From assembly GCF_001458595.1 (NCBI RefSeq), contig NZ_LN890327.1:202178-266177 (forward strand): a stretch of DNA of 64,000 nt. Reading direction: 5' to 3'. Every line of letters starts with the position of its first letter. Positions within the stretch are counted from its first letter, which is position 1. Both the position numbers and the translations under genes were made by a program. The notes under the pieces are model-generated. The model saw nothing but the letters and a program-made list of their open reading frames with translations, was not told where the DNA came from and ran no database searches. The stretch comes from Clostridium neonatale. GTDB lineage: Bacteria > Bacillota > Clostridia > Clostridiales > Clostridiaceae. Below, one piece after another: positions 40,776-61,482 of this stretch.

Positions 40776-41038
40776 AAGTTGAGTAACTATGATTTTAGAG
40801 AAAACAAAGAAATTCAATATATGAATAGGCTTAGTATTGTATTAAAATTTGAACTTTTAAATTCTTTGGCAGAGGATGTTCAAAAATTGTTTGTCCAAAA
40901 CTTGTTTTTTTGGAGCAAACATTTTTGGGTGCATCCTCTGCCATTAGAATTTTTAGTTCGAATTTTTCTACAATCGAGCCTATCATATATTGAATTTCGG
41001 TTATTTCCAACTAAACTTTGATTCTACTCAATTTATTT
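40776..41038. mobile_element. 263-bp long inverted repeat, MITE-like
   Basis: Two imperfect arms of about 120 bases mirror each other. Shared blocks, read inward from each end: GTTGAGTA/ATTGAGTA, GAAATTCAATATATGA, AGGCT, ATTGTA, AATT(T/C)GAACT, GGCAGAGGATG, and GTTTG(C/T)(T)CC near the centre. The ends look like terminal inverted repeats. No transposase is inside; an 80-codon frame there is a by-product of the fold. Probably a non-autonomous element or its remnant. Confidence 0.6.
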
Positions 41039-57592: not shown

Positions 57593-58270
57593 ATGTTAGA
57601 AGAACTTTTTAAGGATAAAAAGAAGCTTGGCATATATATTGTCATATTAATATTATTAACTATTCTTGGTTTTAATTATTACAGGAATGGGTATAAGGAA
57701 TTAAGAAAAAATAATGATGAAGATATATTTGTTGAACAAAATAATGAGTCTGATAATTCAGCTTATTTTGAGAATGAGAGCAATTCTAAAAGTGAATTTT
57801 CTGAGAAAAGCATTCCTTTAAAAGATAAAAACATAGTTGTGGAAATTAAAGGGGAAGTAAAAAAGCCTGATGTTTATACATTAGAAGATGAGTCTATAGT
57901 AAAAGATGTAATAGATCTTGCAGGTGGTGTAACAGAAGAAGCTGATCTAAGTAATATAAATAGAGCAAAGAAATTACAAAATCATGAGTTAATATATATT
58001 AGAAACAAGAATGAAATAAATGATAAGGTTGAAGATAATACAGTTGTAAATAATATAGAAACTACAACTAATGTAAGCAATATGGTCAATATAAATTCTG
58101 CAACATTAGAGGAATTAAAAACTTTAAATGGTATAGGTGATGCTAAGGCCAATGGAATAATAGAGTATAGAGAGAAAAGTGGTGGGTTTACTTCTACTGA
58201 TCAAATAAAAGAAGTGGATGGAATTGGTGAAAAAATGTTTGAGAAAATTAAAGATAAGATAGAAGTTTAA
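57593..58270 (+). CDS. comEA: competence protein ComEA, helix-hairpin-helix DNA-binding
   Basis: 225 residues. Membrane-anchored DNA receptor of the uptake machinery. Seen: N-terminal membrane helix (about 15-35), an acidic linker, an SLBB domain (about 82-140, VVEIKGEVKKPDVYTLE), and a C-terminal pair of HhH motifs (about 160-225, VNINSATLEELKTLNGIGDA and KANGIIEYREKSGGF). Typical ComEA architecture. No comEB/comEC follow; the gene stands alone before the 71-nt repeats. SD GGAGAGG precedes the ATG. Confidence 0.95.
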   Translation: MLEELFKDKKKLGIYIVILILLTILGFNYYRNGYKELRKNNDEDIFVEQNNESDNSAYFENESNSKSEFSEKSIPLKDKNIVVEIKGEVKKPDVYTLEDESIVKDVIDLAGGVTEEADLSNINRAKKLQNHELIYIRNKNEINDKVEDNTVVNNIETTTNVSNMVNINSATLEELKTLNGIGDAKANGIIEYREKSGGFTSTDQIKEVDGIGEKMFEKIKDKIEV

Positions 58271-58347
58271 AATATTTGATTATATGTTATGATAATTGCA
58301 AGATTAAGAGAAAGATTATATAATAAACAAAGAAACATCTTCAAAGA

Positions 58348-58418
58348 GGAAACATCTTCATTAGTAGATGAAGATGGGCTATACTGCTAAGTTAGTACCT
58401 CACTAAGCATTATATGCC
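58348..58418. repeat. 71-nt structured repeat, unit 1
   Basis: Unit layout: GGAAA, then CATCTTCAT (6-14) pairing with ATGAAGATG (21-29), then GGCTATACTGC (30-40) able to pair with GCATTATATGCC (60-71). The middle TTAGT-ACCTC-ACTAA can fold as a small hairpin in this copy. The 73-base gap before unit 2 is plain AT-rich sequence. Confidence 0.8.
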
Positions 58419-58491
58419 TATGACACATAACTGTAATACTGTAATGATAACATAAAGTATATGTTGTGGATTTTTATTGCTAGTAGTTAAA

Positions 58492-58562
58492 GGAAACATC
58501 TTTATCTATCGATGAAGATGGGCTATACTGCTAGGTTCGTGCCTCACCAAGCATTATATGCC
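58492..58562. repeat. 71-nt structured repeat, unit 2
   Basis: Exactly 71 nt again. The hairpin is CATCTTTAT/ATGAAGATG with one T-G pair, and its loop is CTATCG. The segment 30-40 and the last 12 bases are identical to unit 1. Two bases separate it from unit 3. Confidence 0.8.
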
Positions 58563-58564
58563 GA

Positions 58565-58635
58565 GGGAACATCTTCATCAGTATATGAAGATGGGCTACA
58601 CTGTCAGGCTTGCACATCACTAAGCATTATATGCC
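58565..58635. repeat. 71-nt structured repeat, unit 3
   Basis: Exactly 71 nt. The stem CATCTTCAT/ATGAAGATG is kept, with a different loop (CAGTAT). GGCTACACTGT replaces GGCTATACTGC; the TGC-to-TGT change keeps pairing with GCA through a G-U pair. The last 12 bases are identical to the other units. The next gene begins 86 bases after its end. Confidence 0.8.
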
Positions 58636-58720: not shown

Positions 58721-59425
58721 ATGTCAAAGAAGATAGCAAGCATATTGATGAGCTTAGTATTATGTGTATCTTTAATTAGCTGTGGAAATGGAAAAACAGA
58801 AGATGAAGCAGCAAAAGAAAATAATACAGCTCAAGAGCAGCAAAAGACAGATGCGACAGATGCATACCTTACAGGAGAATGGGCAGAAGATCGTACATTA
58901 GATGAGCTTAAAACTGTATTTGATGAAAAGCTTGCTAACGTAGAGAAAATAACAAAAGATACAGGATTGAAGTATTCATTAGATGAGAAGATTAAGAAGA
59001 TCGATGGCCAACAAGTGACAGAAAAAGCAATTTATTTTGATAATGAAAATCCAGAAATGAACAAAATGGAAAGCATGTATTTTGGATTAAAAATATATGG
59101 AGAAGATTTATCAAGTGGAGAAATTCAATTAAAATTAAGCTTGAAATTTGATAGTAAGGATGCAATAGAAAGCGGAAAGTTTGATTTAGGAGAAACAGCT
59201 TTTGCTAAATACATAGAAGCCTTTACAGGAGAAGAGAATAAAGATTATTCTAACATAAATAATACTATAATTGAACAAATGAAAAGTGGTCAAGAAGAAG
59301 TAATAGTTAGTAATACAACAAAAGATGGGTTAAAAGAAGAATATCTTGCTGATAAGGATTATATTGTTTATAAATTATCAACTAAAAAATATGTATTTGC
59401 AAATGCAGAAATGAGCATGGAATAA
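58721..59425 (+). CDS. hypothetical lipoprotein, 234 aa
   Basis: Signal peptide with lipobox LISC (lipidated Cys21), then a Glu/Gln/Lys-rich linker (about 25-45) and a folded part of about 185 residues including AYLTGEWAEDRTLDELKTVF. Family not recognised; it has the make-up of surface lipoproteins of unknown role in clostridia. SD AGGGGGA precedes the ATG. The small membrane protein gene follows 19 bases later, so they are probably one unit, with the 71-nt repeats in its upstream region. Confidence 0.75.
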   Translation: MSKKIASILMSLVLCVSLISCGNGKTEDEAAKENNTAQEQQKTDATDAYLTGEWAEDRTLDELKTVFDEKLANVEKITKDTGLKYSLDEKIKKIDGQQVTEKAIYFDNENPEMNKMESMYFGLKIYGEDLSSGEIQLKLSLKFDSKDAIESGKFDLGETAFAKYIEAFTGEENKDYSNINNTIIEQMKSGQEEVIVSNTTKDGLKEEYLADKDYIVYKLSTKKYVFANAEMSME

Positions 59426-60126: not shown

Positions 60127-61482
60127 ATGAGAAGAGGAAGCGATATTATTGTTAAAATAGAGAATTCAGAATTTCCGTCAACAGGAATAGGTTATGCAGA
60201 AGATAAAAAAATATATGTAAAGAATGCTTTTCCAGGCCAGACGGTTAAAGCGAGAGTTAAAAAGAAAAGAGATACTTATGCAGAAGCAAAACTTATTGAA
60301 GTGATTGATAAAGCAGAATATGAAATTGATGCAGTATGTCCTCATTTTGGAGTATGTGGAGGATGTTCATCACAAAATTTATCATATGAAAAGCAATTAG
60401 AGTTTTTAAGTGAAGAAATAAAAGATTTATTTAAAAATGCAGATGTTCCAATGGGAAATTATCTGGGGATTCAAGGCAGTCCAGAACAGTTTGAATACAG
60501 AAATAAAATGGAATTTACTTTTGGAGATGCAGAAAAAGGTGCTCCACTTGGTGTTGGAATGCACATGATAGGTAAATCCTTTGGGATAATAACAGTTGAT
60601 GAATGTAAGCTTGTAGATGAAGATTATAGAAAAATAATAAAGCTTACAGTAGAATATTTTAGAGAACAAAATTTACCTTATTATAGATTAATGAAGGCTG
60701 AGGGTTATTTAAGACACTTAGTAATAAGAAAAGCCAAAAATACAGGAGAATTGTTAGTAAATTTAGTAACTACAACTCAAATAGATTTTGATTTAAGTGA
60801 ATATGTAAAGTTATTAAGGGATCAAAAATATTCAGGAAGATTAGTTTCAATTATACATACAGAAAATGACTCAAGATCAGATGCAGTAATACCAGAAAAG
60901 GTTAATGTACTTTATGGTAAAGACTATATAAGAGAAGAACTTTTAGGTCTTGAATTTAACATATCACCATTTTCATTCTTCCAAACTAATACAAAGGGAG
61001 CAGAACAACTTTACTCAATGGTTAGGGAGTTCATGGGAGATAGTGAAAATAAAGTTGTATTTGACCTTTATTGTGGAACTGGAACAATTGGTCAAATAGT
61101 TGCACCAAAAGCTAAGAAAGTTATAGGTATTGAACTTATAGAAGAAGCTGTTGAAGCAGCTAAGGAAAATGCTAAGCTAAATGGATTAGATAACTGTACT
61201 TTCCTTGCTGGAGATGTTGCAGAAATAATTAAAACAGTTAAAGATAAACCAGATATAATTATTTTAGATCCACCAAGAAGCGGGGTTCATCCTAAGGCAC
61301 TTGATTATGTAATTAAGTTTAATGCACCAGAGATAATATATGTTTCATGTAATCCTAAGACTTTAGTTAATGATCTTAAAGTTCTTATTGAAAGAGGATA
61401 TGAAGTTGTGCAGACTAAGGTTAAGGATATGTTCCCTAATACACCTCATGCTGAGACTGTTGTGAAGCTAATCAAGAAATAG
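60127..61482 (+). CDS. rlmD: 23S rRNA (uracil-C5)-methyltransferase, RlmD/RumA type
   Basis: 451 residues. Seen: N-terminal TRAM domain (about 1-60), the Fe-S cluster motif [20 protein letters not shown] (three Cys, CxxxxxCxxC), SAM motif [27 protein letters not shown], and the catalytic Cys in YVSCNPKT. It methylates a uridine such as U1939 of 23S rRNA; the exact site among RlmD/RlmCD/TrmA paralogues cannot be set by sequence alone. Followed by a terminator and the start of a variable region. Confidence 0.95.

Follow-up and report, generated by a model that had tools for sequence, protein, structure and literature searches.

In the window, that is, the whole stretch of 64,000 nucleotides of the Clostridium neonatale genome that was analysed, three copies of a short two-hairpin unit lie on the plus strand downstream of a ComEA-like gene (57593..58270, plus strand; named by eye from the C-terminus of its product) and upstream of a lipoprotein-like gene (58721..59425, plus strand; no Pfam family). 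Unit 1 occupies positions 58348..58418 (hairpin 1, 58353-58376; hairpin 2, 58377-58418), unit 2 positions 58492..58562 (58497-58520 and 58521-58562) and unit 3 positions 58565..58635 (58570-58593 and 58594-58635).

Structure and setting of the three units

The length of 71 nt that an earlier note, made from the sequence of this region, had given to the units starting at 58348, 58492 and 58565 was borne out. The same note had described three tandem units, which is correct for units 2 and 3 only: these are arranged head-to-tail and form a tandem of period 73 according to TRF, while 73 nt of other sequence separate unit 1 from unit 2, hence the arrangement is one unit plus a tandem pair. In an 82-nt register, units 2 and 3 share 84% and 80% identity with unit 1, respectively. 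The 12-nt stub GAAACATCTTCA, noticed before unit 1, is indeed present (58332..58343, plus strand) and represents either an incomplete copy or a duplicate of 17 bp from the 5' end of unit 1 produced by slippage.

Each unit begins with GGAAAC, followed by hairpin 1 of 9-10 bp and the abutting hairpin 2, which harbours a bulged T. The proposed first stem of 9 bp is found in unit 3, whereas the minimum free energy (MFE) structures of units 1 and 2 have 10 bp and a 4-nt loop; the C-to-T change said to result in a T.G pair is real and belongs to unit 2. Both helices form in the MFE structures of units 1 and 2 (z -3.86 and -4.28), but the MFE structure of unit 3 folded alone keeps helix 1 and not helix 2 (z -1.44; 22 of 200 shuffles as good). 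One terminator-like site, which would suit an antisense terminator, is predicted on the minus strand of unit 1. In agreement with the observation that the units match no riboswitch class, the Rfam scan of the window at the gathering score revealed one tRNA only and no family over the units, and a scan of eight carrier loci at E<=5 yielded three rows, none of them over the units.

Unit 1 is located between two promoter-like boxes, the predicted P1 (TTGCAA-17-TATAAT; 58296..58324, plus strand) and P2 (TGACACA...TGTAATA...TGATAA; 58421..58450, plus strand), and ends directly before the latter; units 2 and 3 are situated between P2 and the ribosome-binding site AGGGGG. Altogether, nine promoter-like sites are predicted on both strands, compared with 4.1 expected. 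The lipoprotein-like gene has a match at E<=1e-5 in 53 of the 97 other relatives searched, and the orthologous loci of 19 of these 53 were examined, 17 of which have an ORF with a ComEA-like C-terminus upstream. The spacers of 15 of the 19 were aligned with that of C. neonatale from which the units had been removed; L167, L171, L174 and L181 were left out on account of no upstream ORF, a wrong spacer end, an unrelated-looking upstream ORF or a very short spacer. The TTGC...TATAAT block of P1 aligns in 12 of the 15 relatives and that of P2 in all 15, albeit in degenerate form in L179 and L180, and as judged from this alignment P2 resembles a regulator or promoter site that the aligned relatives have retained. 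A search with the broader covariance model R2 (see below) at E<=1 detected no unit at any of the 19 orthologous loci, and all three units when applied to the C. neonatale genome. Since P1 and P2 align and the units do not occur at these loci, a promoter-like region conserved among relatives carries the units only in C. neonatale, among the genomes examined.

It had also been proposed that the units are a tandem regulatory leader of the lipoprotein gene, and that one could check whether copies always precede the same type of gene. They do not: the genes beside and downstream of the copies are diverse and unrelated, with no association to any gene type. These diverse neighbours, together with the 19 empty orthologous sites examined, lead to the rejection of a gene-specific leader and likewise speak against a conserved riboswitch or other cis-regulatory leader; that the units serve the lipoprotein gene as a riboswitch is improbable.

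Copy number, nesting and distribution

BLAST of unit 1 returned at least 45 rows at E<=10 in the C. neonatale genome, with the best 40 of 74 candidates scored. The covariance model R1, built from 31 copies, gave 80 rows at E<=1 and, at E<=0.0012, at least 78 copies, a number that may be low, as 150 of 4850 first-look candidates were scored; R2 gave 84 copies at E<=0.01. The copies, present on either strand, are spread over contigs C12, C14, C15 and C16, and with 78 family members in the same genome the units are more than a chance likeness. None of the 78 lies wholly within an ORF of at least 70 aa and seven overlap the edge of one (ORFs called mechanically). The covariance-model search envisaged in the earlier note hence shows its alternative of a REP-like dispersed element to be right in kind, and the many intergenic copies, the lack of an ORF and the ability to fold agree with the general description of dispersed palindromic repeats.

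Two of the copies at ORF edges (L097:1774-1845 and L097:4799-4870) each lie at the 3' end of one of two paralogous wall-binding-repeat-like genes, the kind of which was read from translation. The TAG stop codon of both is provided by the left edge of the unit, and a C-terminal-like coding stretch follows the unit. Arrays of the octamer AATATAAG or AATTTAAG were seen upstream of the unit or of composites containing it in several intergenic stretches (L020, L021, L025, L027, L029 and L030).

Many copies are associated with other repeats. In a set of 79 copies (the 78 above and C16:677827), 19 are enclosed between the halves of another repeat, namely D (11), B (6) or E (2), all of which are also found free of it. 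The unit occupies the loop in the case of D and E, and in B it replaces the first hairpin's top and 3' arm. One of the 11 nestings in D is reversed in orientation (C16:3005975), and the remaining ten look like a single event multiplied as a composite. By hand, 11 palindromes of type D were counted in the fetched stretches, as well as 19 of a sister type, with short loops and no unit. B is represented by at least 41 matching rows in the C. neonatale genome and D by at least 57, including split and reverse-strand rows, 40 candidates having been scored for each; B-like sequence is present in 13 of 58 other genomes searched. Another module, C, follows 16 of the 79 copies. Since so many copies ride in larger composites (11 in D, 16 before module C), the number of independent jumps must be smaller than that of copies.

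It could be argued that the units possess no mobility of their own and have spread only as passengers of such composites or by recombination and replication slippage. Near-identical D-plus-unit composites, composites of about 1 kb with modules C and D, and a four-unit array with a 74-nt period (C16:370501-370794) are all consistent with this explanation. For 21 of the 79 copies, however, a coarse match, which misses divergent neighbours such as the unit beside C16:1702514, recognised no module in the 60 nt to the left or right, and the unit occurs in D, B, E and plain intergenic settings, and in both orientations in D; exclusive spread as a passenger is therefore considered unlikely.

Several related repeats deserve mention in their own right. 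Three partial matches to B with a 76-nt period are located at G030:C22:219953-220140, and B-like repeats are found six times in about 30 kb at G017:C1:1255162-1285604. The window itself harbours a long palindrome of the D-sister type, TTGTTTGTCC...GGAGCAAAC, at about 40875-40940 (C15:243064), the loop of which contains no unit. The gene of an IS110-type transposase (PF01548 and PF02371; L074 copy scanned) was met twice, at L074:45-1241 and L088:30-1226 (minus strand), and both copies start shortly past an arm of a D-type palindrome, as if the insertion sequence targeted the D-type repeat.

As regards other genomes, R1 matches seven of 147 at E<=0.01, C. neonatale included; G086 and G104 are weak, and the match in the latter (E 0.0099) looks like chance. 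R2 matches 11 of 40 genomes of the genus, that is, C. neonatale and, as divergent copies, 10 of the 39 others, leaving 29 without a match. BLAST with the 92-nt consensus of the form found in other species gave matches in 13 of 147 genomes including C. neonatale (12 of 146 others) and as many as 11 rows in G015; some of the matches are partial (27-53 nt). Constant parts of the family are AGGAAC/GGAAAC or a similar motif at the start and, within hairpin 2, GGGCT and ATGCC at the base and CTAAG...CTAAG higher up; the stem letters between them vary among copies. C. neonatale also has one copy of the 92-nt form typical of other species (L129; C15:319735-319826). In the collections of viruses, phages and plasmids, no match was detected save one of 42 nt and 86% (E 5e-3) in an Enterobacter plasmid, which was taken as chance. 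A protein scan and a scan for the exact pattern in a collection of genome contigs likewise gave no match.

In G011, G030, G036 and G037 a unit lies antisense at the 3' end of a gene that we presume from its sequence to be rlmD-like, and reaches or touches the stop codon. The corresponding gene of C. neonatale (window positions 60127-61482) has no unit at its 3' end, and in the case of G037 similarity to C. neonatale resumes, by eye, soon past the unit. A copy at this site common to several species fits vertical retention, possibly selected, as well as repeated insertion.

Covariation, mispairs and orientation

An alignment of 70 copies, 68 of them distinct, has 93.7% pairing cells; of the 23 pairs, 19 are changed on both sides (182 cells), and none of 500 shuffles scored as high on any of five measures. 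A second set of 35 copies (34 distinct, L116 and L130 being the same copy), drawn almost entirely from other species with row L129 from C. neonatale, has 86.8% pairing cells. Covariation in relatives, named previously as a check on an RNA role, was found here at 14 of 23 pairs. Four measures exceeded all shuffles in this set, the exception being further pair types, where 345 of 500 shuffles reached the observed value. Two of the pairs in the model, both low in hairpin 2, are for the most part not formed here. A tight subfamily has four pairs with change on both sides, a value reached by 8 of 500 shuffles. It must be borne in mind that alignments A3 and A4 were fitted to the model and so lean towards structure, and that kinship of sequences can by itself beat shuffles.

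The earlier suggestion that stems are preserved by selection on RNA or hairpin structure is therefore partly upheld: covariation does keep the stems, yet selection on a sense RNA is not borne out. G-U and A-C mispairs both derive from G-C by equivalent mutations, so selection on a sense RNA is expected to produce an excess of G-U. The observed ratios of G-U to A-C are 12:12 in the tight subfamily, 35:36 among C. neonatale copies and 10:18 in other species, these counts being cells of related sequences rather than independent events.

The orientation of the units differs between genomes. When the 78 C. neonatale copies are merged to 67 clusters and ORFs of at least 100 aa are considered, 36 clusters between tandem genes are sense and 11 antisense (n=47, p 0.00035), and 46 of the 67 run along the leading strand (p 0.003), as deduced from GC skew and the strand of the genes. 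All three clusters located where genes run against the inferred replication are sense, and six of the 11 antisense clusters sit within palindromes D or E. In other species, by contrast, rows between tandem genes are antisense in 17 cases and sense in two. This count is drawn from 36 rows in all, with L129 left out, 17 rows uncounted because their neighbours are convergent, divergent or missing, and four rows being partial matches; the 3' end of a gene faces the 3' side of the unit in 29 of the 36. Given that G-U and A-C mispairs balance and that the strand bias is opposite in other species, a shared sense-RNA role is unsupported, and these comparisons of sequence do not support an orientation-specific RNA role common to the whole family.

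The sense bias in C. neonatale is nevertheless real and is the best remaining point for a role in RNA, for instance as a structured motif of mRNA leaders or 3' ends that serves stability, processing or protein binding and has multiplied because it is useful. The strong covariation and the better folding of the predicted lipoprotein-gene leader than of shuffles (z -3.85) also argue for such a motif; the mispair ratios, the antisense position in other species, the lack of an association with gene type and the absence from the 19 orthologous loci argue against it. Such an origin of the family seems improbable, though a role special to C. neonatale would still be compatible with the data; the orientation bias in this genome would fit transcript selection or a replication-linked process as well.

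Mobilisation and relation to known repeats

The similarity to REP sequences raises the question of a RAYT (TnpA-REP) transposase, as in the REP/BIME family of E. coli. REP/BIME/REPIN elements with RAYT, as portrayed in the available part of PMC6006769, are likewise short hairpins, dispersed between genes and interrupted by a bulge or mismatch, occur as singles, tandems and mosaics and vary among species. The Y1 transposase domain (PF01797) is found in 27 of 40 genomes of the genus. In C. neonatale, however, no match to PF01797 was obtained at E<=0.001, by a search that gave matches in five of 14 control genomes, and RAYT mobilisation in this genome is rejected. In 10 genomes, 14 RAYT-like loci were chosen for their longer reading frame and lower score, IS200-like loci being left out, and none of the 14 has a unit better than E 0.29 (three matches up to E 5); RAYT-like genes were picked in four of the 11 genomes with the unit and in six of the 29 without it. 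The 5' foot is also different, namely GGAAAC before hairpin 1 and GATG before hairpin 2 instead of the GTAG/GTGG tetranucleotide at the foot of REP hairpins (PMC6006769, in the part available). Besides, the unit consists of two abutting hairpins with a conserved CTAAG...CTAAG core and is nested in other palindromes, which sets it apart from REP, BIME and REPIN. Movement of the family by RAYT thus appears very unlikely. One RAYT-like locus, L150 (G030:C33), has GC-rich hairpins of its own, of the CCCCGGAGG type (949-1003 and 1747-1795), which may perhaps form with the RAYT-like gene a true REP/RAYT pair of the genus unrelated to the unit.

Four reverse transcriptase matches in C. neonatale, each accompanied by group II intron RNA matches at the same locus, and the orientation of the units, which tends to follow transcription in this genome, could suggest reverse-transcribed copies inserted via group II intron reverse transcriptases, but no unit at E<=1 is present in the stretches around the four matches, which excludes these genes as neighbours, and the orientation is mostly opposite in other species; this origin is considered very unlikely.

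Small palindromes that insert in or near genes include the Rickettsia palindromic elements and the GC clusters of yeast mitochondria, the latter of which also insert into one another. The Rickettsia elements keep reading frames open, whereas the present unit supplies some genes with a stop codon at their end. ERIC, BOX, RUP and NEMIS are mostly intergenic and without genes, and BOX is modular. By description, these four (names and sizes in Table 3 of PMC2267715, a source available in part) resemble the unit as short palindromic repeats. The same available part of PMC2267715, which gives no mechanism for them, describes Clop-1 of C. perfringens (93 bp, 44 copies) and Clot-1 of C. tetani (74 bp, 19 copies), which, compared by description only, are alike in belonging to Clostridium, in size (near the 92- and 74-nt forms), in being type I intergenic and in conserved structure, and are the closest published hints. 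In the literature searched, a description of the present repeat was not found, and one may still be in print.

Taken together, the units of the lipoprotein-gene leader are in all probability members of a dispersed two-hairpin DNA repeat family, likely a non-autonomous mobile element, that was probably inserted there. The family is likely a mobile or formerly mobile palindromic repeat of the REP/BOX/ERIC kind, apparently new and unusual in its nesting. The absence of a mobilising enzyme among those searched for and of a clear target-site duplication, by eye in the flanks, speaks against mobility. As to the terminal inverted repeats that a MITE would have, the ends present by eye a 6-nt imperfect match (AGGAAC / AGGCAT).

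The symmetry of the mispairs, the nesting in loops and the presence on both strands suggest that the unit may be copied as folded single-stranded DNA, which would join into hairpin loops or other exposed single-stranded DNA by means of an enzyme that would not be a Y1 (RAYT/IS200) transposase. Complementarity would then be kept because the DNA hairpin itself is recognised. Template-switch repair operates between the arms of imperfect palindromes and may help to keep it. Units 1-3 are predicted to be transcribed from P1 and units 2-3 from P2, in which case the 5' leader of the lipoprotein mRNA would carry the hairpins, and any effect on expression would be incidental or secondarily recruited. 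A more far-reaching possibility, advanced only tentatively, is that of a genus-wide system of hairpin-in-hairpin mobile DNA, in which two-hairpin units would enter the loops of palindromes, the composites would multiply, and an enzyme independent of Y1 would recognise the shape of single-stranded DNA and not the sequence of the stem.

Strong covariation alone is no proof of RNA function, and in the present case it is read as a property of DNA on account of the mispair symmetry and the empty orthologous sites. The repeats of this genome are layered, larger palindromes enclosing smaller ones, and pieces related to them are also present in other species of the genus; they provide clear material on the spread of hairpin repeats that lack a transposase.
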